A stretch of DNA of 64,000 nt, from positions 1 through 64,000 of the forward strand of contig NZ_SWAR01000003.1 in assembly GCF_006386545.1 (NCBI RefSeq), given 5' to 3'. The DNA comes from Methylibium rhizosphaerae (GTDB lineage Bacteria > Pseudomonadota > Gammaproteobacteria > Burkholderiales > Burkholderiaceae_C). Shown piece by piece: positions 25,868-34,679 of the stretch. The notes under the pieces were generated by a model that saw only the letters and a program-made list of their open reading frames with translations, made no database searches and had not been told where the DNA came from. Numbering within the stretch: the first letter of the stretch is position 1; every line of letters starts with the position of its first letter. A program made the translations under genes and the position numbers.

Positions 25868-27604
25868 ATGGTGTGTCTCAGTAGCGCCAGCTTGGATCAC
25901 AACAAGTCCATGGTGCTTGAAACGGATACCGTCGGCGGTCGGGTCGATCGCCGTGCTCGGCCGCGCGCGGCGCTCACCGCCGAGCTGATACGCCACGCCT
26001 ACCGGCCACATCGGTCATGGGCCGAACTGCTGCGTGGGCTGCTTGAAGCGCTCGCGGACCGATCGGGTGCGACACACGGAGCTCTTGCGCTGCACGAGAT
26101 CGGCACGCTGGCGTTCGAATCCACAGGCGGTGCATTCGTGGCGCACTGGCAAGACGCAGGCGCGCGGCCCCGCAACGGCCATGCCCAGCCCGGCAGCTTG
26201 CCGAACGGCGCATTCAGGTGGTCCCTTCCAGCGAAGCACGCTGCCGGCAACGGGAACAGTCATTCCTCGATGGTGGTGCAGCCGGCGGTGTTTCCGCTGC
26301 GCTACGGCGCCGCGATGCTGGGCGAGCTGCAGCTTGCATGGCCCGGCGGTCGTGCTGCACAGGACGCGCACGAGGCCCTGTGTGAAGAGTTCGCAGACCG
26401 TTGCGCGCTGCTGGCCAAGCGCTATGCGATTCAGCGATGGACCGGTCAGCGCCTCGGGCGGCCCATGATGCTGGTCGGCGCGTCGGAGGGGCTGTTTCGC
26501 CTGGAGTCCTTCGTCGAGATGGCTTCGGCGAGTGCGCTGCCGGCGTTGCTGACGGGCGAGTTCGGCACCGAAAAGGCCCTGCTGGCGGCCGCCATCCATT
26601 GCTGCGGCCCGCGTGCCGAAGGGCCTTTCATCGAAGTGAATTGCGCCGATCCGGCGGGTACGCCGGCCAGCTGGTTCGAGCAGGCCCGCGGCGGCACGCT
26701 GTTCTTCAACGGCATCGACGAGCTGCCCGCCGCCCTGCAGGGGCAGCTTCCACAGCACATGCACTCGCGCCTGTGCCAATGGCTCAGCGTGCCCGAGACG
26801 CGCGAGCTGCGTGTCGTTGCGACCTGCACTGCGGACCTGCGCGTGCAGGCGGGGGACGGTCGTTTCTCGCGGGCGCTGCTGGCCGAACTCGACTTCCTGT
26901 CCATTCGCGTGCCGCCGCTGCGCGAGCGCCGGGACGACATCGAGGCATTGGTCGCTGCCGCCATCGAGCGCCAGGGCTTCGATCCCGGTGTGCTGCTGAC
27001 CAGCGACCTGATCGAACTCTGCCGCGCCCACGCCTGGCCGGAGAACTTGTTCGAGCTGGAGCGGGTGATCGCGCGCCTGGCCGTGATGACGAAGGGGCGC
27101 CCGATCCGCTATGTCGACATGCTGCACCACGCGCCGCACATGGCCGCAGAGCGGCGAGCTGCCACGCCGCGGCCTGCTCCACCGCCACCTGTGCCCTCGC
27201 GGCCAAAGGTCACGGCTTCGGCGCCGGACCACTGGGTGCGGTGCGCGATGACGGGCAACCAGCAGGAGCTCGGCAAACTGCACGACGGCCTGCGCAAGGC
27301 GCTGCTCTACCTCGGCGAACACCATGCGGAAGCCGTCGTGCAGGGGCAGCTGGCGCAACAGGCGCACGTGAGCCCATCGCACCTGAACTTCCTGTTCCGC
27401 AGCGTGCTGAAGACGACCTTCAAGTCGCTGCTCCAGCGCATCCGCATCGAACGCGCGCGGCAGCTGCTGGCGGCGGACAAGCACCAGCGCATCACCGACG
27501 TCGCCTTGAGCGTGGGCTTCAACGACCTGAGCCACTTCGAAAAGAGCTTCCGGCGGATCATCGGCATCAGCCCGCGCGAGTACCGCCGCACGGAAGCGGG
27601 TTGA
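25868..27604 (+). CDS. AraC-type regulator with ATPase-dead sigma-54-activator-like domain
   Basis: 578-residue transcription factor converging on the R-body operon. Residues about 50-190 look GAF-like. Residues about 200-420 follow the sigma-54-activator AAA+ order, but the key parts are lost. Walker A is GEFGTEKA (230-237) instead of GESGTGKE, Walker B is GGTLFFNGID instead of LFLDEI, and only about 10 residues separate VNCA (257-260) from FEQA (270-273), so the GAFTGA loop is deleted. PPLRER (349-354) remains. Residues about 475-575 are an AraC double helix-turn-helix (HVSPSHLNFLFRSVLKTTFKSLLQRIRIERARQLL; ITDVALSVGFNDLSHFEKSFRR). It should therefore bind DNA as an AraC protein without sigma-54 activity. 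The ATG at 25910 is an alternative start. Its stop is one base from the muramidase stop. Confidence 0.85.
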   Translation: MVCLSSASLDHNKSMVLETDTVGGRVDRRARPRAALTAELIRHAYRPHRSWAELLRGLLEALADRSGATHGALALHEIGTLAFESTGGAFVAHWQDAGARPRNGHAQPGSLPNGAFRWSLPAKHAAGNGNSHSSMVVQPAVFPLRYGAAMLGELQLAWPGGRAAQDAHEALCEEFADRCALLAKRYAIQRWTGQRLGRPMMLVGASEGLFRLESFVEMASASALPALLTGEFGTEKALLAAAIHCCGPRAEGPFIEVNCADPAGTPASWFEQARGGTLFFNGIDELPAALQGQLPQHMHSRLCQWLSVPETRELRVVATCTADLRVQAGDGRFSRALLAELDFLSIRVPPLRERRDDIEALVAAAIERQGFDPGVLLTSDLIELCRAHAWPENLFELERVIARLAVMTKGRPIRYVDMLHHAPHMAAERRAATPRPAPPPPVPSRPKVTASAPDHWVRCAMTGNQQELGKLHDGLRKALLYLGEHHAEAVVQGQLAQQAHVSPSHLNFLFRSVLKTTFKSLLQRIRIERARQLLAADKHQRITDVALSVGFNDLSHFEKSFRRIIGISPREYRRTEAG

Positions 27605-27605
27605 G

Positions 27606-28370
27606 TCAGCGGATCCGCACCGCTTCGAACTGCTCGGCCGTGCCGTTGAACCGGTCGAGGTCCACCACGCCTTCGACACCCGCCACGCGGCCGGCCCGGC
27701 TGTATTGCCAGAAGGTCCACGTCGTCCAGTCCAGCGGCAACTGCGGCTGGGCGGCGCGGCTGTACTCGGCCAGCCACAGCGGGTAGGCCGAGAAGCCCGA
27801 CAGGTACTGGTTCGCGAAGGACTCGCCCGAGTAGATGATGGGCTTGACCCCGTATCGCTGCTCGACGAGCCCCAGGAACTGCTTCAGGGCCGCGGCGAGT
27901 TCGGCCGACGAATTGCCGTTGAGCTTCTCGATGTCCACCACCGGCGGCAGGTCTCCCGGCTGCAGGCTGCTCACCTGGGCCGAGAAGTTCGCGAACTGCG
28001 CCTGCGGCGTGTCGCTCGTCACGTAGTAGTGGTAGCTGCCCGCCGCCAGCCCGGCCGCGCGGGCGGCCTGGATGTTGGCGCGGTAGTCGGGGTCAGCCAC
28101 CGTGCTGCCCTGGCTTGCCTTGATGAAGACGTAGTCGGTGCCGGCGCCTTTGAGCTGGGCGAAGTCGACTTTGCCCTGCCAGTTGGAGAGGTCCACGCCG
28201 CCGATGGGTGGCGTGACAGCGGCCCGGCTCGCGGCGGCCGTGGGCGCGGGCGCGCTCGGGGCGGGGCCGGGAGGCACTGGCCGGTCGCAGGCCGCGAGCA
28301 CTGCGCACGCCAGCCAGGCCGCGGCTTGCAGCGCCTTCGTGCAGGCGCTGCGGCTCGCGGGCACAAGCAT
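27606..28370 (-). CDS. GH25 muramidase lipoprotein
   Basis: 254-residue glycoside hydrolase family 25 (lysozyme-like) enzyme, predicted to cut the beta-1,4 bond between MurNAc and GlcNAc. A lipoprotein signal ends LAA-C28, then a Pro/Ala linker reaches to about 57. The GH25 barrel begins GVDLSNWQGKVDFAQLK. The catalytic D-x-E is in VVDIEKLNG, and IIYSGESF, LWLAEYS and WTFWQYS follow as usual. The ATG at 28370 overlaps the preceding stop (TGATG); a GTG one codon earlier is possible. It is the last gene of the R-body operon and faces the regulator. Its place there suggests peptidoglycan remodelling during ribbon assembly or release, which is inference. Confidence 0.88.
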   Translation of the reverse strand: MLVPASRSACTKALQAAAWLACAVLAACDRPVPPGPAPSAPAPTAAASRAAVTPPIGGVDLSNWQGKVDFAQLKGAGTDYVFIKASQGSTVADPDYRANIQAARAAGLAAGSYHYYVTSDTPQAQFANFSAQVSSLQPGDLPPVVDIEKLNGNSSAELAAALKQFLGLVEQRYGVKPIIYSGESFANQYLSGFSAYPLWLAEYSRAAQPQLPLDWTTWTFWQYSRAGRVAGVEGVVDLDRFNGTAEQFEAVRIR

Positions 28371-28633
28371 CACGACGCTTCGCTCAGCGTGGTCTGCCCG
28401 GGGCCGTTCGCCGTGACCTGGAAGGTCACCGGGTCGTCACCGATCTCGACGAACTGCTCGGCCTGCGGTTGGGCGCCCTGGTAGTAGGAGGTGACCGTGG
28501 GGTCGCTTTCGTCGAGGTTGGCGCTGCTGCCCCAGTTCAGGCCGTTCACGCCCCAGCGGGCCGAGCCGATGGTGATGGCCTGGAGGTTTTCCTGTTCCGA
28601 GCCACCGGTCAGTTGCAGAGTCACTTGTGTCAT
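28370..28633 (-). CDS. Unrecognised 87-residue protein in the R-body operon
   Basis: Small, Cys-free, beta-rich and acidic protein: residues 1-35 MTQVTLQLTGGSEQENLQAI...GVNGLNWGSS, and C-terminal DPVTFQVTANGPGQTTLSEAS. It has no signal peptide or membrane segment. GGGAG precedes the ATG at 28633, and its stop overlaps the muramidase start. The pattern looks like a single small beta-sandwich. I assign no family. Close coupling to the muramidase suggests co-production at fixed ratio, for example as a partner or inhibitor; that is speculation. Confidence 0.75.
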   Translation of the reverse strand: MTQVTLQLTGGSEQENLQAITIGSARWGVNGLNWGSSANLDESDPTVTSYYQGAQPQAEQFVEIGDDPVTFQVTANGPGQTTLSEAS

Positions 28634-28694
28634 GAAGGCTCCCTTCGCTTGGGTTGAGGTTGGGTTGGAGGTGGCAAAGGGCGTGGGCCTGGGC

Positions 28695-30569
28695 TCACAC
28701 CACGGGCAGCAGCGTCTTCAGCGCCTCGTATTGCCGCGAGATCACCGTGCGGATCAGGTAGTCCTCGATCAGCGCGGCAGCGACCTTGCGTTGCGCGGCG
28801 ATCTCCGGCAGCGAGGCGAACGCCACGTCGGGATCGACCGCGTCGCGCCGGAACGGCGCTTCGCCGGGCCTGGCGGTGGTGGCGGAGAGGTAGGTGGTGG
28901 CCTTGCCCTTGTCGAACACCACCATCGTCATCTCGTAGGTGATGCCGGTCGTCCGCGGCACGCTGTAGGTGCGAAAGCGCACCGAGGTCGAGAGCCCGGC
29001 GCCTGCCTGGCCGGCATAGCGCGGATCGAGCTGCGTGCGGAACAGCTCGCACAGGGCGTCCACCTGCAGTTGCGTGTCCACGCGAAGCACTGCGGCTTTC
29101 AGCACGCCCGAAAAGCCGATCTCCTGCGGTGCGAGGTATTCGTCCTGCTCCAGTACGCGCATCAGCACGAGGTCGTCGCTGAATGCCGCGGCGCGCGGAC
29201 CTGCAGCGACGGAGCTGGGCAGTCTCGCAAGTGTCTGGGTGAGCCATTGCCGCAGCTGCGTCCGCGCCTGGGCGAAGCGGTTGAGTTGCGTGCCGCTGAC
29301 GTGGCCGTCCTGGGTGAAGTCGCCGTTCTGGGCCACCGCACCATCGGCAATGCGATCCATCAGGTTGCGTGCCAAGGCGTATGCCGGGTCGCCGTCCCCG
29401 AGGATGGCCTGGGCCTGGTTGCCGCCGTACCGGTTGATCGCGGCGGTGACCGTGGCCACGTGCTGGGGCGGGCCCCCCGTGATGTCGGCAACGCCGGCCA
29501 TCGCACTGAGCGCGTGAAGGATGTTCTGCTGCTGCGCCTGGTTGCTGCCGTCCCAGATGACCTTGAAACGTGAAAAGCGCTTCTCGAGCTTGTCGGGGTG
29601 GCGCGAGCTGTCGTCGGCGATCTCGCACAGCATCGTGGCGATCTCGCGCAGGTGGTACATGATGTCCGGCAGCGGCAGGTACACGAGGTCGGGGCCCGGC
29701 TGGTTCACGCCGACGGGCTGCCGGGTGACGGTGATCTGGCGCTGCGCCAGCTCCTCCCACACGGCCACTGCCTCGATCGTGTCGCGGCGCGGCAGCGTCA
29801 CGTCGATCAACTCCATCAGCAGGGGCCTGGCGATCTCTCCCATGTTCGGCTGGACCGGTGGCTCCGGATCGAGCGCGGCGTGCCAGGTGTAGCCGAGCCG
29901 GTGCAGCACGAACGGTCGGATCGCGTCGTTGAGCAGGATGCCGGGAATGCGTTCCGGGTTCGGGATGTCCGGCGCCGAGACCGGGCGGCGATCATTGGTC
30001 CACAGCCCCAGCCGCTGCTGGTCGAACACCCGCCGCACCGACTGCGGGTCGTCGTAGCTGAGCACATAGGCCGAGTAGTTCTTGCCGTCCAGGTTTGCGC
30101 GCTGTGCGAGCCAGCGCGTCACCGTGCCGTTGGCAAAGTCGCCGGCCACCAGCGCGATGTTCACGCCGGCCTGGACCAGCGCATCCGTCACCAGTTCCTC
30201 CACCAGGCCATAGATGACACCCTGCAGCGGCACCGGCGCCCAGGGATCGATGACGATCTGCGTGTCCCAGTCGGACGTGCCGCCGCCGTTTTGCATGGCC
30301 GCGGCGCCGTTGGGGTCGCGCACGCATTCGAAGGCGTTGCCGCCCTTCATGTAGAACTTCACCAGGTCCCGGCCTGCGACGACGTAGTACTTGTCCTGCA
30401 GGGTCTGGTTCAGTTCGGTGATGCGGTTGTCGATCTCCTGCAGCGCGTCCAGCACCTGGATGCGGATCGCCGGCGTTTCCAGGCCACCCGGGTCGGCCAC
30501 GTTGTTGATCTGCTTGGTCAGCCAGCCGCTCATCGCGCGGCGTGCAGCCTTCTGGTCGGAAGTTTCCAT
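28695..30569 (-). CDS. Large R-body-operon protein with nucleotidyltransferase-like signature
   Basis: 624-residue soluble protein that I cannot assign to a named family. Residues 72-108 read FYMKGGNAFE...GTSDWDTQIVID: a hydrophobic-Gly-Gly turn, then a D-x-D (D100/D102) on a strand, the arrangement of a pol-beta-type nucleotidyltransferase active site. A third carboxylate may be D256 in LMELIDVTLPRRD (252-263). The N-terminal 60 residues are helical. Residues 300-420 are helical with an AQQQNILHALSAM segment. Residues 500-624 are mixed and end EALKTLLPVV. AGGAG precedes the ATG at 30569. It lies between the small RebB-like genes and the muramidase on the same strand. The enzymatic reading is inference from the motif only. 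Confidence 0.75.
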   Translation of the reverse strand: METSDQKAARRAMSGWLTKQINNVADPGGLETPAIRIQVLDALQEIDNRITELNQTLQDKYYVVAGRDLVKFYMKGGNAFECVRDPNGAAAMQNGGGTSDWDTQIVIDPWAPVPLQGVIYGLVEELVTDALVQAGVNIALVAGDFANGTVTRWLAQRANLDGKNYSAYVLSYDDPQSVRRVFDQQRLGLWTNDRRPVSAPDIPNPERIPGILLNDAIRPFVLHRLGYTWHAALDPEPPVQPNMGEIARPLLMELIDVTLPRRDTIEAVAVWEELAQRQITVTRQPVGVNQPGPDLVYLPLPDIMYHLREIATMLCEIADDSSRHPDKLEKRFSRFKVIWDGSNQAQQQNILHALSAMAGVADITGGPPQHVATVTAAINRYGGNQAQAILGDGDPAYALARNLMDRIADGAVAQNGDFTQDGHVSGTQLNRFAQARTQLRQWLTQTLARLPSSVAAGPRAAAFSDDLVLMRVLEQDEYLAPQEIGFSGVLKAAVLRVDTQLQVDALCELFRTQLDPRYAGQAGAGLSTSVRFRTYSVPRTTGITYEMTMVVFDKGKATTYLSATTARPGEAPFRRDAVDPDVAFASLPEIAAQRKVAAALIEDYLIRTVISRQYEALKTLLPVV

Positions 30570-30645
30570 GCGTGCTCCTGGACCTTGCGCCGGGGCGTGC
30601 CTCGTGTGTGCCCCTGGGGGTACGAAAACTTGGGGCGGCGCCTGC

Positions 30646-31056
30646 CTACTTCGAGGTGCCAGGCGTTCCCGTGCCGGCCACTGCTGCCGCGATCGCCGCC
30701 TCCGCCTGCTGCTGGGCTGCAGCCACCGCCTGCTCCTGCGCCTGCCCGGCCTGCTGCACGGCTGTCACCACGGCCGCCTCGCTGGCGCTCAATGCCTGCT
30801 CGGTTTGCGAGACGGCCTGGGTCGCCGCTTGGCCGAGGTCTGCCTGGGCGGTCGCGTCGACGGCTTGTCGTACGGCGCTGCCGGTGGCGCTGATGGCCGC
30901 ATCGACTTGCTGCTGGGCCGTTTGCATGGCCTGTTGGGCCAGTTGGTTGGCCACGTCCACCGGCGACAGCGGCTTGGCAGGCGGTGACGGTGGCTTCGCC
31001 TCCGATGGGGCGGGCGCGGGTGGTGTCTTCGGGGGCGGCGCGGGGCTTTGGGTCAT
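30646..31056 (-). CDS. Ala/Gln-rich coiled protein with Pro-rich head, R-body operon
   Basis: 136 residues. The first 32 are Pro/Ala/Lys-rich (APPPKTPPAPAPSEAKPPSPP). Residues about 33-125 are an almost pure Ala/Gln/Val helix with repeated QQA, AVxQA and TAQQQ patterns, suited to a long amphipathic helix or coiled coil. It resembles the low-complexity helical character of Reb proteins but lacks their VNxQITD signature. Its ATG overlaps the preceding gene by four bases (ATGA), so the two are coupled. Structural or scaffold roles are possible; no family is recognised. Confidence 0.7.
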   Translation of the reverse strand: MTQSPAPPPKTPPAPAPSEAKPPSPPAKPLSPVDVANQLAQQAMQTAQQQVDAAISATGSAVRQAVDATAQADLGQAATQAVSQTEQALSASEAAVVTAVQQAGQAQEQAVAAAQQQAEAAIAAAVAGTGTPGTSK

Positions 31057-32153
31057 GACGCAGTCTCCTGGGGCATGGCGGGCGGTGTGGGGGCCTGCAC
31101 GGCGGTCGCCGACGGTTGCAGCCCGTAGCTGCGCAGCGAGATCACGCCGTTGGCGCCCAGTTGCAGCTCGGCCTGCTGGTTGCCGGCTTCGAGGGTGTAG
31201 GTGCAGGTGGCGCCGTCCTGGCCCATGCGGCTCAGGCGAGGCCTGGCCGCGGCGAGAAACGACTGTGCAGAGCCGATGTACAGCTCGACCAGGCGCTGCG
31301 CGGCAGCGCCGGTTTCGTTGTGGTAGGACGTGTGCCGCACGAACTGCTGCAGGCCTTCCGACAGGCGGGAGAAACCGACGCGCCGGCCGCTGGTGAGCCA
31401 GCCGCTCACGGTCTGCGATACCTCGCCGGGCGAGGGCAGGCCGCTCAGCTGCGGGCAGTCGAGCGCGCCGAAGAACAGGGGCAGCAGGCCTTGCATCGTT
31501 TGCGTCGCCTGATTGGCGCGGGCCTCGGGCGTTTGCGCCGAGGTCCCGGGCTGGGCAGCCAGCGCCTGATAGAAGCGCACGTAGTCGACGTATTCGAGCG
31601 GCGTTCGGGCCTGCTGGATGGCGAAGGCTGCTGCCTCCTGGTCAAGGCCGTCGGCGGGCGCTGCATCCGGGTCGTTCGGGCCGCGCATGAGCTCGCACAA
31701 CGCGACGCGCTCTGTCAGACCCATGGCCTGGAACAGCGGTGCATGGTCGACGCCGAGGCCGGCGAGCCAGGAGTCGACGGCGGCCAGGTCCGCCTGGGGG
31801 AGCAGGCGGTGGTCTGCCAGCACGCGCTGCATCTGCGCCGCGACGACGGTGCTGGTGTCGCCGCTTTCGGCCTTGGCGAGCGCCCGCAGGTCGGCCAAGC
31901 CCAGCGTCATCAGCTTCACGGGGCTCACCAGCAGCGTGAGCACGGGCAGCAGCGCGAGGGGCGATGCATGCAGGCCCTGCTGCACCTGGGCGACCAGGGT
32001 GGTCTCGTCTGCGAAGTCGTAGCGCGCGGCCGGCGCGGCCAGTGCCCAGGCGAGCCATTCCTGCCCGCCGTCGATGAACGCCAGCACCAGCCGGCACAGC
32101 TCGGAGAGGGATGCGGCCTGCGGGATGGGCCGGCCGGCGACGGAGATCGTCAT
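31053..32153 (-). CDS. Unrecognised 366-residue R-body-operon protein
   Basis: Soluble, mainly helical protein without signal peptide. Notable stretches are RLVLAFIDGGQEWLAWALAAPAARYDF near the N-terminus, TPLEYVDYVRFYQALAAQ in the middle, and a beta-rich tail (GATCTYTLEAGNQQAELQLGANGVISLRSYG) at about 313-345. A short hydrophobic segment, LHASPLALLPVLTLLVSPVKLMTLGL, at about 61-86 could touch a membrane. I recognise no domain. It starts 28 nt after the RebB-like gene and overlaps the Ala-rich gene by four bases, so it belongs to the same transcript. Confidence 0.75.
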   Translation of the reverse strand: MTISVAGRPIPQAASLSELCRLVLAFIDGGQEWLAWALAAPAARYDFADETTLVAQVQQGLHASPLALLPVLTLLVSPVKLMTLGLADLRALAKAESGDTSTVVAAQMQRVLADHRLLPQADLAAVDSWLAGLGVDHAPLFQAMGLTERVALCELMRGPNDPDAAPADGLDQEAAAFAIQQARTPLEYVDYVRFYQALAAQPGTSAQTPEARANQATQTMQGLLPLFFGALDCPQLSGLPSPGEVSQTVSGWLTSGRRVGFSRLSEGLQQFVRHTSYHNETGAAAQRLVELYIGSAQSFLAAARPRLSRMGQDGATCTYTLEAGNQQAELQLGANGVISLRSYGLQPSATAVQAPTPPAMPQETAS

Positions 32154-32181
32154 GGCGATGGTTCTCCTGTGGTCGCGTGGG

Positions 32182-32529
32182 TCAACCCGCCGGGAAGCCC
32201 TTGAGCACCGAGGCGGCGGCGGTGCCGATCTTGGCGTAGTCGTCGGTGGCGCCCTGCATCAGCTCCTGCGCCTTGCTGATGGCGTTGGCGTACTTCTGAT
32301 CGCCGGTGGCGAGGTACTGCGCCATCGCCACGCCGACGGCGGTGGTGGCGATGGTCGAGATGTTGCGCAGCGCGTCGGTCGCGTCCTGCACCGCGATGGC
32401 GGTGGACTGGGCCACCGACTGGTAGGCCTTGCCCGCGCCGCTGGTGAGCACGACCTGCGGGCTCATCGTGGCGAGCTGGACCTGGTTGATGACGTCGATG
32501 ACCTGTGGGTTGACCTTGCTCGGGTCCAT
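32182..32529 (-). CDS. Diverged RebB-like protein (115 aa)
   Basis: The first 80 residues keep the RebB pattern in weakened form: VNPQVIDVINQVQL, then KAYQSVAQSTAIAVQDATDAL, then ISTIATTAVGVAMAQYLATG. These correspond to VNxQITDxxTQ, LYQATAQALANAAHNATNAQ and TAQxxTTMGVATLYSIDT of the full-length copies. An extra 35-residue helical tail (YANAISKAQELMQGATDDYAKIG) is added. AAGGAG lies 6 nt before the ATG. It may cap or nucleate ribbons; that is inference. Confidence 0.75.
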   Translation of the reverse strand: MDPSKVNPQVIDVINQVQLATMSPQVVLTSGAGKAYQSVAQSTAIAVQDATDALRNISTIATTAVGVAMAQYLATGDQKYANAISKAQELMQGATDDYAKIGTAAASVLKGFPAG

Positions 32530-32553
32530 GACCGCTCCTTGGGTGTCGTGATC

Positions 32554-33144
32554 TCAACCGCCTGACGGCGCCGGCGAGGGCACGGGGCCGGGGTCCGGGG
32601 CTGGTGTCGGGCTGGGCACGGGAGTGGGGGCTGGCGCTGGCGCCGGAGGCGTCGGGGCAGGTGCTGGCGTGGGGGCCGGCGCGGGCTCCGGTGCAGCGGA
32701 AGCGGCCTGTGCGAGCAGCTTCAGGTCGGCCTGCGCCGTGGCAGCGTCCTGCGTGGAGCCTGAGGCCTGGGCCTGCAGCACCTGGATCGCCGTCTGCCCC
32801 TCGGCCATGGCCGCGGCGATCACGGCTGCCGGCGGCGGCGGCTCGGGCGCCGGGCCGGGCAGCGGGTTCACCACCGGTGCCGGGCTGGGGGCCGGTGTGG
32901 GCGGCGGAACGACGGGGAAAGGCGCGGACAGCATCTTCGCGCACGCTGCCGTCACGGCGGCCGAGCTGATCATGCCGGCGCTTTGCTGCCGGTTGACCGC
33001 GTTGTGCATCGCCATGCCCAGCGTTTCGAGCAGCACGGCGTCGAGCATGCCGAGCGCCTGCGCGGGCGATTGGCCGGAGGCCAGCGTCACGACGCTGCTG
33101 ACGGCGTCGACGATCTGGCTGTTCACGGTGCTGTCGTCTGTCAT
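32554..33144 (-). CDS. RebB-like domain with long Pro-rich tail (196 aa)
   Basis: Residues 1-74 are a diverged RebB domain: VNSQIVDAVSSVVTL, GQSPAQALGMLDAVLLETLGMAMHNAVNRQQ and SSAAVTAACAKML. Residues about 75-102 are a Pro/Ala linker, about 103-145 an Ala/Gln helix, and about 146-196 a second Pro-Ala-Thr repeat (APAPTP type). This is a ribbon-type domain joined to an extended tail, and differs from ordinary Reb proteins of 80-120 residues. Its ATG overlaps the previous gene by four bases (ATGA). The tail could connect ribbons to a surface or partner; that is inference. Confidence 0.75.
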   Translation of the reverse strand: MTDDSTVNSQIVDAVSSVVTLASGQSPAQALGMLDAVLLETLGMAMHNAVNRQQSAGMISSAAVTAACAKMLSAPFPVVPPPTPAPSPAPVVNPLPGPAPEPPPPAAVIAAAMAEGQTAIQVLQAQASGSTQDAATAQADLKLLAQAASAAPEPAPAPTPAPAPTPPAPAPAPTPVPSPTPAPDPGPVPSPAPSGG

Positions 33145-33377
33145 GAACTGGCCGCTCCCTTGGTGATGATCAAAGCAAGAACCTGGGCCACGGAGGCTTC
33201 GGCGAGTACCTGCCCTCGCTGCTGGCAGGCGACCGCGTTCTCCATCGCGAGGCCGAGGCTGTCGGCCATCGCGACATAGGTCATGCCCATGGCGAATGCC
33301 GGGGCTTGGCCCAGGGCCACCACCGAGCCCGAACCGGCCGGGCCGGCGAGCCGGGCGGTGGCCGGGGGACGCGGCAA
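33141..33377 (-). CDS. Short diverged RebB-like protein (78 aa)
   Basis: Keeps the central RebB core: LGQAPAFAMGMTYVAMADSLGLAMENAVACQQRGQVLAEASV aligns with LGDAPAIAMGNLYQATAQALANAAHNATNAQQQSYVTAQSAT of the full copies. The N-terminal VNxQITD part is replaced by MPRPPATARLAGPAGSGS. No ATG is available; TTG at 33377, with GGGAG about 8 nt upstream, is the best start, and an internal GTG is the alternative. The stop overlaps the start of the next gene. It may be a decayed copy or a specialised subunit. Confidence 0.6.
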   Translation of the reverse strand: MPRPPATARLAGPAGSGSVVALGQAPAFAMGMTYVAMADSLGLAMENAVACQQRGQVLAEASVAQVLALIITKGAASS

Positions 33378-33415
33378 TCGGCGGCTCCCGGGTCGGGGTG
33401 CGCGCTAGCGTCGGC

Positions 33416-33688
33416 TTACTTCAGGCCGAGGATCTCGGTGGTCGCCACGCCGGTGGAGGCGGTGTCCACGGACAGCAGGGTCGACACGCCCTGGGTGGTG
33501 GAGGCCTGCATCGTCACGTAGGACTGCTGCTGGTTGTTGGTGGCGTTGTGCGCCGCGTTCGACAGGGCCTGGCTGGTGGCGACGAACAGGTTGCCCATCG
33601 CGACGGCGGGCGCGTCGCCCAGCACCTTGGTGTTGGCCTGGGTGATCGAGTCGGTGATCTGGCTGTTGACGGCGGTCGGGAATGCCAT
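33416..33688 (-). CDS. RebB-family R-body protein, copy 4
   Basis: 90-residue protein with the full RebB signature: FPTAVNSQITDSITQANTKV, LGDAPAVAMGNL, QALSNAAHNATNNQQQSYVT and TTQGVSTLLSVDTASTGVAT. Family members assemble into insoluble ribbons that roll into R bodies and extend on a trigger such as low pH. Compared with copies 1 and 2 it differs mainly in the LFVATSQ and NNQQQ segments. AGGAG lies 8 nt before the ATG at 33688. It is the most promoter-distal of the four standard copies. Confidence 0.92.
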   Translation of the reverse strand: MAFPTAVNSQITDSITQANTKVLGDAPAVAMGNLFVATSQALSNAAHNATNNQQQSYVTMQASTTQGVSTLLSVDTASTGVATTEILGLK

Positions 33689-33749
33689 GGTGTCTGCTCC
33701 TAGCGGGTGGTGGTGGATCGGCAGGGCGAAGGGTCAGCGCGGGGGGCCG

Positions 33750-34016
33750 TCAGCCAAGAATCTTCTTGGTGGCGGCACCGGTGGCGCCGGTGTCGAGCGA
33801 ATACAGCAGCGACACGCCCATCGTGGTCGCTGCCTGCGCGGTGACGTACATCTGCTGCTGCGCCAGCGTGGCGTTGTGCGCCGCGTTGGCGAGGGCCTGT
33901 GCCGTGGCCTGGTACAGGTTGCCCATGGCGATGGCCGGCGACGTCCCGAGCACCTGGACGTTGGCCTGCGTCACGGAGTCGGTGATCTGGTTGTTGACGG
34001 CGGTGGGGAAAGCCAT
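33750..34016 (-). CDS. RebB-family R-body protein, copy 3
   Basis: 88 residues. FPTAVNNQITDSVTQANVQV, GTSPAIAMGNLYQATAQALANAAHNAT and AATTMGVSLLYSLDTGATGAATKKIL give an unambiguous RebB match. Lineage-specific changes are VQVLGTS for TKVLGDA and LAQQQMYV for NAQQQSYV, so it is clearly distinct from copies 1 and 2. AAGGAG precedes the ATG at 34016. Spacing to neighbours is about 40-60 bp, consistent with one transcript with separate ribosome sites. Confidence 0.92.
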   Translation of the reverse strand: MAFPTAVNNQITDSVTQANVQVLGTSPAIAMGNLYQATAQALANAAHNATLAQQQMYVTAQAATTMGVSLLYSLDTGATGAATKKILG

Positions 34017-34053
34017 GTGCTCAGCTCCTTGGCGTTAAAGGCGGTCGGCGGTG

Positions 34054-34323
34054 TCAGCTGCCCAGCACCGTCTTCGTGGCGACGCCGGTGGAGGCGGTGT
34101 CGATCGAATACAGCGTGGCCACGCCCATCGTGGTGGACGACTGTGCGGTCACGTAGCTCTGCTGCTGCGCGTTGGTGGCGTTGTGGGCTGCGTTGGCCAG
34201 GGCCTGCGCCGTGGCCTGGTAGAGGTTGCCCATCGCGATGGCCGGCGCATCGCCCAGCACCTTGGTGTTGGCCTGGGTGATCGAGTCGGTGATCTGGTTG
34301 TTGACGGCAGTTGGAAATGCCAT
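34054..34323 (-). CDS. RebB-family R-body protein, copy 2
   Basis: 89 residues, differing from copy 1 at about five of the first 87 positions (for example D9N and V15I) and ending KTVLGS. It has all RebB blocks, no Cys and no charge-rich stretch, as expected for a self-assembling ribbon subunit. AGGAGG lies upstream of the ATG at 34323. The near identity to copy 1 implies recent tandem duplication or ongoing conversion. Confidence 0.93.
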   Translation of the reverse strand: MAFPTAVNNQITDSITQANTKVLGDAPAIAMGNLYQATAQALANAAHNATNAQQQSYVTAQSSTTMGVATLYSIDTASTGVATKTVLGS

Positions 34324-34388
34324 GTCGGTGTCCTCCTGAGTGGTTGTCTACGTCGTCGCGGGTCGGGCCTGCAGGCCGGGCACATGCT

Positions 34389-34679
34389 TCAGGGCCCCAG
34401 GCCCTTGACGCCGGTGCTCAGGATGTCCTTGGTGGCGACGCCGGTGGAGGCGGTGTCGATCGAGTACAGCGTGGCCACGCCCATCGTGGTGGCCGACTGC
34501 GCGGTCACGTAGCTCTGCTGCTGCGCGTTGGTGGCGTTGTGGGCGGCGTTGGCCAGGGCCTGCGCGGTGGCCTGGTAGAGGTTGCCCATGGCGATCGCCG
34601 GCGCGTCGCCCAGCACCTTGGTGTTGGCCTGGGTGACGGAGTCGGTGATCTGGTCGTTGACTGCTGTCGGAAATGCCAT
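34389..34679 (-). CDS. RebB-family R-body protein, copy 1 (promoter-proximal)
   Basis: 96 residues: FPTAVNDQITDSVTQANTKV, LGDAPAIAMGNLYQATAQALANAAHNATNAQQ and TTMGVATLYSIDTASTGVATKDIL, then a short extra tail STGVKGLGP absent from copy 2. It is the first gene of the minus-strand operon. A strong AAGGAG lies 7-8 nt before the ATG, so high expression is likely. The family (killing trait/RebB) was defined in the R bodies of Caedibacter, where Reb proteins polymerise. Confidence 0.94.
   Translation of the reverse strand: MAFPTAVNDQITDSVTQANTKVLGDAPAIAMGNLYQATAQALANAAHNATNAQQQSYVTAQSATTMGVATLYSIDTASTGVATKDILSTGVKGLGP

Follow-up and report, generated by a model that had tools for sequence, protein, structure and literature searches.

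We analyzed a 64,000-nucleotide stretch of the Methylibium rhizosphaerae genome (contig NZ_SWAR01000003.1, positions 1 to 64,000; hereafter the window) and describe here its cluster of reb genes, which encode the RebB-type subunits of R-bodies, protein ribbons that uncoil abruptly within cells. The sequence identifies an R-body locus that has its own regulator and additional genes. We read it, with a somewhat better than even chance of being right, as a Group 1 locus for R-body delivery in which effectors can be exchanged and which also carries lysis genes. The anatomy of the locus, the linkage of its genes, the exchange of cargo and the motifs are properties of the sequences compared below; the new part is the exchangeable cargo adjoining the ribbon genes. 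The locus consists of the following features.

34389..34679, minus strand: reb1, RebB-type R-body subunit, 96 aa (PF11747, E 7.5e-31)
34054..34323, minus strand: reb2, RebB-type, 89 aa (PF11747, E 2.3e-30)
33750..34016, minus strand: reb3, RebB-type, 88 aa (PF11747, E 3.4e-30)
33416..33688, minus strand: reb4, RebB-type, 90 aa (PF11747, E 4.6e-31)
33141..33377, minus strand: diverged Reb, 78 aa, TTG start (PF11747, E 4.4e-15; size and order fit HP1.4)
32554..33144, minus strand: diverged Reb with a Pro-rich C-terminus, 196 aa (PF11747, E 3.1e-20; size and order fit HP1.3)
32182..32529, minus strand: Reb-like protein, 115 aa (fits HP1.2; no RebB match)
31053..32153, minus strand: HP1.1, conserved partner, 366 aa (homologues in 42 loci; AlphaFold2 (AF2) model)
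30646..31056, minus strand: Pro/Ala/Gln-rich protein, possible adaptor or scaffold, 136 aa (open reading frame of similar composition after HP1.1 in 40/45 loci)
28695..30569, minus strand: cargo protein, putative nucleotidyltransferase-fold effector, 624 aa (motifs KGG, SDWDTQ and ELIDV)
28370..28633, minus strand: 87-aa protein (open reading frame with a ribosome site)
27606..28373, minus strand: GH25 muramidase, candidate lysis enzyme (PF01183 over the full profile, E 3.2e-47; PHROG endolysin, 1.6e-46)
25868..27604, plus strand: convergent regulator, 578 aa, degenerate sigma54-type AAA domain and AraC helix-turn-helix (HTH) (Pfam)

A published core followed by variable genes

Raymann 2013 (PMC3583457) describes in its text a Group 1 pattern of four partner proteins that are restricted to reb-bearing taxa and often stand in a fixed order: HP1.1 (~360 aa), HP1.2 (110–120 aa), HP1.3 (~170 aa) and HP1.4 (60–80 aa), of which HP1.3 and HP1.4 are distant Reb proteins. 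Proteins of 366, 115, 196 and 78 aa occur in that order in the window, and those of 196 and 78 aa match PF11747; we likened them to HP1.1–HP1.4 by size, order and Reb character, without comparing the published HP sequences. On plasmids of Azospirillum brasilense, a species cited in the same text, HP1.1 is ~52% identical to that of the window. According to the text of Dorr 2026 (PMC13430693), whose analysis omits non-Reb neighbours such as HP1.1, secondary Reb groups S1–S3 accompany group 1 and S2 has a Pro-rich tail; the 78-, 196- and 115-aa proteins are probably its S1, S2 and S3, respectively. Core association of the 366-, 115-, 196- and 78-aa proteins with reb is already published in these sources, and a first-pass annotation of the window, which had taken the whole protein set to be undescribed, is superseded for those four. 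For the remaining genes its view holds as far as these sources go: neither covers the gene of 136 aa, the variable enzyme cargo or the regulator. The text of PMC3583457 and PMC13430693, figures and supplements excluded, does not mention the 136-, 624- and 87-aa genes, GH25 or the AAA-AraC regulator, and no description of enzyme cargo at reb loci was found in the open-licence literature as judged by titles and the starts of abstracts.

For comparison we assembled 46 loci, 42 of them from named genomes searched with an alignment of four HP1.1 sequences, the others being the window, plasmids of Eleftheria terrae and Azospirillum argentinense, and G552, a genome of the same class as the window. 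HP1.1 is present in 46/46 loci because they were selected by it. Reb or Reb-like genes were found in 45/46; only one or two are present in 7 loci, 5 of which lie at contig ends. The exception is a Dechloromonas metagenome-assembled genome (MAG; L047:9878-11101) in which HP1.1 and a 136-like open reading frame (ORF) occur with no Reb gene and are followed by an ABC-transporter protein; this may be a relic or an assembly error. Locus genes were called by a simple codon-bias script that missed low-GC genes (seen in L042, L039, L049, L050 and L069).

The common gene order is the reb core, HP1.1, a Pro/Ala/Gln-rich ORF, variable genes and then mostly the regulator. By a crude composition rule applied to 45 loci (L050 excluded), the Pro/Ala/Gln-rich ORF lies straight after HP1.1 in 40, some of these matches probably being out-of-frame or extended ORFs; it overlaps HP1.1 by 4 bases in 20/45 and often ends in a AAQQQAEQAMAAA-like stretch. 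The loci missed by the rule (L020, L025, L048, L059 and L069) each have an ORF of 93–230 aa at that place, and BLAST with the 136-aa protein of the window gave matches in L020 and L021 only. The AF2 model of HP1.1, built from an alignment of 27 sequences, has a predicted local distance difference test score (pLDDT) of 92. Since a fold search of the PDB and BFVD with so confident a model gave nothing at E<=0.001, HP1.1 possibly represents a new fold. Matches to HP1.1 are rare in a class-level sample (4/369 genomes, own genome included, two of the four weak). A search with reb1 also reached three plasmid reb clusters, in Vibrio, Photobacterium and Bealeia, in which the HP1.1 hidden Markov model (HMM) found no match.

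Linkage and exchange of the cargo genes

Linkage was measured on cross-genus pairs of loci because 13 loci are from Xanthomonas and ten carry an Azospirillum label. A common homologous ORF after HP1.1 was found in 131/633 such pairs, as opposed to 1/677 for the upstream flank of reb (up to 6 kb), with 39 of the 46 loci used downstream and 40 upstream, 18 labels in each set and MAG loci counted as separate labels. The downstream interval began 450 bases after HP1.1, with low-complexity masking on, so that tails of the 136-like gene may be included; when it began at 900 bases, 120/602 pairs shared an ORF. Labelling L030 Roseomonas, after its title, instead of Azospirillum changed the counts to 136/640 and 9/686, eight of the nine upstream-sharing pairs being Azospirillum–Roseomonas. 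The downstream set omits L022, L027, L032, L051, L056 and L059 (interval of 600 bases or less) and L047 (no reb), which places cargo-poor loci outside the denominator, and the upstream set omits L020, L023, L031, L036, L043 and L047. We regard linkage of the cargo to reb loci as well supported by these comparisons. The first-pass annotation had named conserved linkage of its accessory genes with reb in related genomes as a check of its reading. The extra gene types do show linkage in other genomes; the 87-aa gene is one for which no homologue was found among the other loci examined, that of Hydrogenophaga taeniospiralis included.

The enzymes encoded in this interval differ from lineage to lineage. 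PF04185 phosphoesterases, 51% identical to each other, are found in the cargo of Albitalea and Caulobacter. Proteins resembling phosphatidylinositol-specific phospholipase C (PI-PLC) occur in Hydrogenophaga, Rugamonas and Curvibacter and are 42–66% identical between genera; they fall under the Pfam cut-off, the Curvibacter protein having no Pfam match at all, and that of H. taeniospiralis matches PI-PLC entries among PDB sequences at 1e-7. G552 carries a phospholipase D-like (PLD-like) protein (1.5e-17) and, just past its regulator, a lipase-like hydrolase that is 45% identical to one of Curvibacter, both lying under Pfam cut-offs. A more distant lipase-like hydrolase is present in X. arboricola (L042), and Nevskia has a lipase-like protein of 692 aa, again below cut-off. 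Bradyrhizobium cargo includes an amine oxidase, and NUDIX proteins occur in Eleftheria and Xanthomonas. A 485-aa protein of G552 is HNH-like by eye only and has no Pfam match. Searches of plasmids with the PLD-like protein found Burkholderia arboris NZ_CP101526, where the match lies ~188 kb from a RebB match, and three Dinoroseobacter records, and those with the lipase-like protein gave partial matches in Proteus and Serratia; none of these has an adjacent reb gene.

Exchange within one genus is seen in Xanthomonas (n = 13 loci), where the slot between the Rv2525c-like gene and the regulator has four different contents: a member of the 624-aa family in 8/13 loci, a lipase-like gene in L042, a 365-aa ORF in L039 and a 191-aa ORF in L049. 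The last two are among the cargo ORFs that are only putative genes. GC content of the slot is 0.543 in L042, 0.468 in L039 and 0.536 in L049, compared with 0.645–0.659 for the loci, and tblastn detected no remnant of the 624-aa gene in these three slots. Different low-GC contents at one position are the pattern expected from cargo swapping by horizontal transfer. Two Xanthomonas loci are uninformative, L045 being cut short and L054 apparently deleted. The latter (L054:9893-11878) retains two Reb-type matches, HP1.1 and a short regulator remnant, and looks internally deleted.

The 624-aa protein and its family

Sequence searches of Pfam, NCBIfam, PHROGs and the PDB gave no match to the 624-aa protein, a single PDB hit at 0.023 being at chance level; no nucleotidyltransferase profile of Pfam or NCBIfam recognised it. 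Its family, defined by the KGG and DWDTQ motifs, is nonetheless present in 18/46 loci, as 13 full-length and 5 distant members, and the other full-length members are 37–45% identical to the window protein. The motifs are of the form FxxKGG, (N/S/G)DWDTQ and ELIDV (ELLDV in one). Two alignments, with 12 and 9 rows, show no variation in KGG, DWDTQ or the acids of ELIDV, even though the rows of the mixed alignment are just 21–36% identical to its first row, a distant member. This order of motifs, GG followed by two acids on a strand and later by a third acid, presumably suits a nucleotidyltransferase, and we designate the protein a putative nucleotidyltransferase-fold effector on the strength of these motifs.

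The AF2 model of the 624-aa protein is weak (pLDDT 58; predicted template modelling score (pTM) 0.53) and shows the order strand-GG-helix-strand(DxD)-helix. In a Foldseek search of the PDB with this model, 9 of the first 13 matches were MenT3/TglT entries, non-significant at a best E of 0.026 with TM-scores <=0.41 and root-mean-square deviations of ~8–11; the others were two giant-virus polyadenylate synthases and two protein tyrosine phosphatase entries.

Among sampled genomes, matches to the 624-aa protein were found in 3/299 of the taxonomic family and 2/399 of the order, own genome included in each. The non-self matches are a reb-linked one in H. taeniospiralis, a weak one in G063 and one in G912, the last two being genomes that lack RebB. 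For G063 (E 3e-4), the 13 window proteins gave no tblastn match in a 13-kb stretch. The distant relative in G912 (813 aa, L068:11138-13579) carries KGG, DWDCQ and ELIDV and adjoins a 147-aa ORF. An exclusive tie of the family to reb is ruled out by this protein. Phage origin was also considered and rejected, two peptide patterns having found no relative on viral contigs and PHROGs containing none. Weak matches of the 624-aa HMM to three HP1.1 proteins (E 0.003–0.01) were taken as chance and left uncounted. Large proteins of the Azospirillum brasilense type (1145–1674 aa) are joined to the family by single linkage only; they occupy the cargo slot at L019:9942-13466, with relatives in L026, L028, L029, L030 and L033, and 3/6 keep DVTxPR by the pattern used.

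Wall enzymes and export signals

The GH25 identity proposed for the last minus-strand gene was upheld (PF01183, 3e-47). GH25 genes are found in the window, in H. taeniospiralis (63–64% identical to the window's) and in Rugamonas (47%), and none was called in a second Hydrogenophaga locus. Fifteen loci, from Eleftheria, Albitalea, Xanthomonas and an alphaproteobacterial MAG, encode an Rv2525c-like glycoside hydrolase, assigned by Pfam for two and by clustering for the remainder. In Curvibacter (L050:14972-16198) a GH108 endolysin domain is duplicated head to tail within one ORF, next to a DUF2589 gene, and in Rugamonas a spanin-like pair adjoins GH25 (PHROG Rz-like, 2e-4; LysC, 9e-5, below cut-off). 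The occurrence of different wall-enzyme families in like loci argues for breakage of the wall as one element of the programme.

By eye, the window GH25 protein begins like a lipoprotein, with an N-terminal signal and a lipobox-like LAAC. In a crude check of 28 proteins, hydrophobic N-termini were found in GH25 and spanin-like proteins, in contrast to the 624-aa, PI-PLC-like, lipase-like and Rv2525c-like proteins, which have none. PF04185 proteins are intermediate in N-terminal hydropathy and their domain begins at residue 10; PLD-like and amine oxidase proteins have a high N-terminal score, yet are not signal-like by eye. Most of the enzymes thus have no obvious signal, which fits cytoplasmic cargo released by rupture.

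The regulator

A dedicated regulator had been predicted at the locus, and the domains found by Pfam (Sigma54_activ_2, AAA-lid and AraC HTH_18) agree. The AraC half is well conserved, with the C-terminal double HTH of that family (PF12833, 9e-25); Walker A and B are altered, by eye. Sigma54-dependent activation is ruled out, as the GAFTG loop is missing in 36/36 regulator homologues. From its sequence, the protein is probably an AraC-type activator whose AAA domain survives as a relic with a sensory or oligomerising role. It is present in 37/46 loci; in 33 of these it follows HP1.1, and in L040, L041, L055 and L057 it precedes reb. L020, L031, L032, L035 and L045, which lack it, are short or truncated contigs, and it is absent for other reasons from L024, L047, L053 and L054. 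A regulator of the same type lies immediately upstream of the reb cluster in Vibrio (L076:12139-13350) and Photobacterium (L078:12006-13058).

Organization of the window locus

The twelve minus-strand genes form a compact run (27606-34679) with gaps of at most 76 bases, and the 578-aa regulator gene on the plus strand converges on the GH25 gene, 1 base separating the two stops. All ORFs reported in the first-pass annotation were recovered at their positions; 4-base overlaps were found at three junctions (78-aa/196-aa, 366-aa/136-aa and 87-aa/GH25) rather than the four it had listed. Its seven RebB-type genes become six by Pfam, four classical copies (PF11747, E 5e-31 to 3e-30) and the 78- and 196-aa proteins, because the 115-aa protein has no PF11747 match; the latter is 85% identical to an Eleftheria homologue at the same place. 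When the whole 6.17-Mb genome was searched with PF11747 the same six genes were returned and none elsewhere, so this is the sole reb locus found. ATG is the start codon of 10/12 minus-strand genes, TTG and GTG being used by the 78-aa and GH25 genes, respectively; AGGAG lies closely upstream of 8/12 and GGGAG of 3 more. GC content of the locus is ~0.69 and base composition is unremarkable, and a scan for sigma70 promoters and terminators gave nothing exceeding chance. The 87-aa protein has no NCBIfam or Pfam match below E 0.1 and none in PHROGs at 0.01.

Delivery, assembly or self-lysis

In the delivery reading, the conserved part of the locus (reb1-4, the 78-, 196- and 115-aa Reb relatives, HP1.1 and the 136-aa protein) would build a coiled ribbon, and an exchangeable cargo module (the 624-aa and 87-aa proteins and the exported GH25) would be placed between this core and the AraC-type regulator. 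The regulator would activate all of these genes in part of the cell population, ribbon and signal-less cargo enzymes would accumulate in the cytoplasm, and the muramidase would weaken the wall. Upon uptake by a predator or cell lysis the ribbon would unroll and rupture both envelope and vacuole membrane, giving the cargo enzymes access to the target's cytoplasm. R-body formation in this strain, delivery, targets, catalysis and toxicity are what we infer. The wider proposition, that Group 1 R-body loci serve generally as a system for delivering toxins, has in our estimate about an even chance. It would combine a constant ribbon core and adaptor with swappable cytoplasmic enzymes (the new nucleotidyltransferase-like family, phospholipases, lipases and possibly a nuclease), a lysis enzyme and an AAA-AraC switch, and the R-body toxin would be lineage-specific and encoded beside the ribbon.

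Several observations weigh against delivery. The loci were chosen by HP1.1, so that reb clusters without it (L076–L078) are unrepresented. Little or no recognisable cargo is present in L022, L027, L051, L056 and L059, and potassium-transport genes occupy the cargo position of L053. NUDIX and amine oxidase proteins are atypical as toxins, and no immunity gene stood out at the loci, where no dedicated search for one was made. To these must be added, for the 624-aa protein, the empty database searches, the weak model, the non-significant fold matches, the lack of KGG and DWD in the large Azospirillum proteins, and the distant relative in a genome without RebB.

An alternative is that the downstream genes are not delivered and assemble, cap, modify or regulate the ribbon. 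A non-Reb gene, AZC_3784, is required for R-body formation in Azorhizobium in the literature excerpts consulted, which provides an analogy for an assembly role, and the 136-like gene that follows HP1.1 in most loci would suit such a role. However, the genes beyond the 136-like gene vary, include phospholipase-, lipase- and nucleotidyltransferase-like enzymes and are missing from some loci, and assembly factors should not be exchangeable; we consider this explanation unlikely.

Another alternative is that the cargo acts in the producer, as a programme of self-lysis or altruistic death: a toxin of the nucleotidyltransferase or phospholipase kind, together with a muramidase, would kill or open the cell and so free the R-bodies. 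The presence at the loci of a spanin-like pair and of GH25, GH108 and Rv2525c-like enzymes is in keeping with it, as is the fact that toxins of the MenT3/TglT type act on their own cell. Most bacteria, on the other hand, do not usually have phosphatidylinositol among their lipids, so that the PI-PLC-like enzymes point outward, and most cargo enzymes carry no signals. This explanation, too, we hold to be improbable.

Finally, the downstream genes could be hitch-hikers in a horizontally moving island, with no function connected to the ribbon; reb loci do move horizontally (text of PMC13430693), low-GC stretches occur in Xanthomonas and a 624-aa relative lies outside reb, but the contrast in cross-genus sharing between the two flanks, the shared placement and strand of these genes, between core and regulator, across many genera, and 624-aa motifs invariant even in distant relatives make this highly improbable.

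Implications for the R-body toxin

In Caedibacter, R-bodies are needed yet insufficient for killing (text of PMC3583457 and PMC7297999), the killing toxin is termed unknown (PMC7297999), and species-specific toxins are raised as one possibility by Raymann 2013 (PMC3583457). If the general-delivery proposition is true, each lineage would have its own enzyme as the R-body toxin that has so long been looked for, with its gene beside those of the ribbon. Concrete candidate R-body toxins adjoin the ribbon genes not only in the window but also in H. taeniospiralis, a free-living bacterium reported to form R-bodies (text of PMC3583457 and PMC3764935), and with the candidates in this position the toxin question becomes testable by gene removal. 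The H. taeniospiralis locus comprises reb1-4, the core, the 136-like gene, a 624-aa homologue (35%), GH25, a PI-PLC-like gene and the regulator, and, as a reported R-body maker that carries most of the set, this species is a natural test organism. The regulator may reveal when R-bodies are made, and HP1.1, a partner protein that was modelled confidently and for which no solved fold was a significant match, merits a structure of its own.

Comparison with known systems

The locus has the same Reb and HP1.4, HP1.3, HP1.2 and HP1.1 sizes and order as the Group 1 synteny of Raymann 2013 (PMC3583457), and differs from it in having the AAA-AraC regulator, enzyme cargo and a 136-aa gene, which are not in the section text of that paper. 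It has RebB-family subunits (PF11747) in common with rebA-D of Caedibacter taeniospiralis, whose plasmid is matched by reb1, but that cluster has far fewer genes. The Azorhizobium reb operon with RebR and the reb cluster of P. aeruginosa PA14 likewise combine Reb proteins with non-Reb partners and dedicated regulators; in the portions of the literature drawn on here RebR is of the Crp-Fnr type and PA14 has rcgA and fecI2, whereas the window regulator is a degenerate AAA domain fused to an AraC HTH. MenT3/TglT toxins, the nearest PDB folds to the 624-aa protein, have the same succession of GG, DxD and a later acidic strand, but the 624-aa protein is much longer, has no sequence match to them and gives a fold match that is non-significant. 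Among the cargo proteins scanned, none was conspicuously a secretion or tail protein, a class for which no dedicated search was made. Polymorphic toxin and contractile injection loci consist of a constant delivery core followed by exchangeable effectors. The layout described here is alike, core first and then effectors, and the delivery device would in this case be the R-body ribbon.

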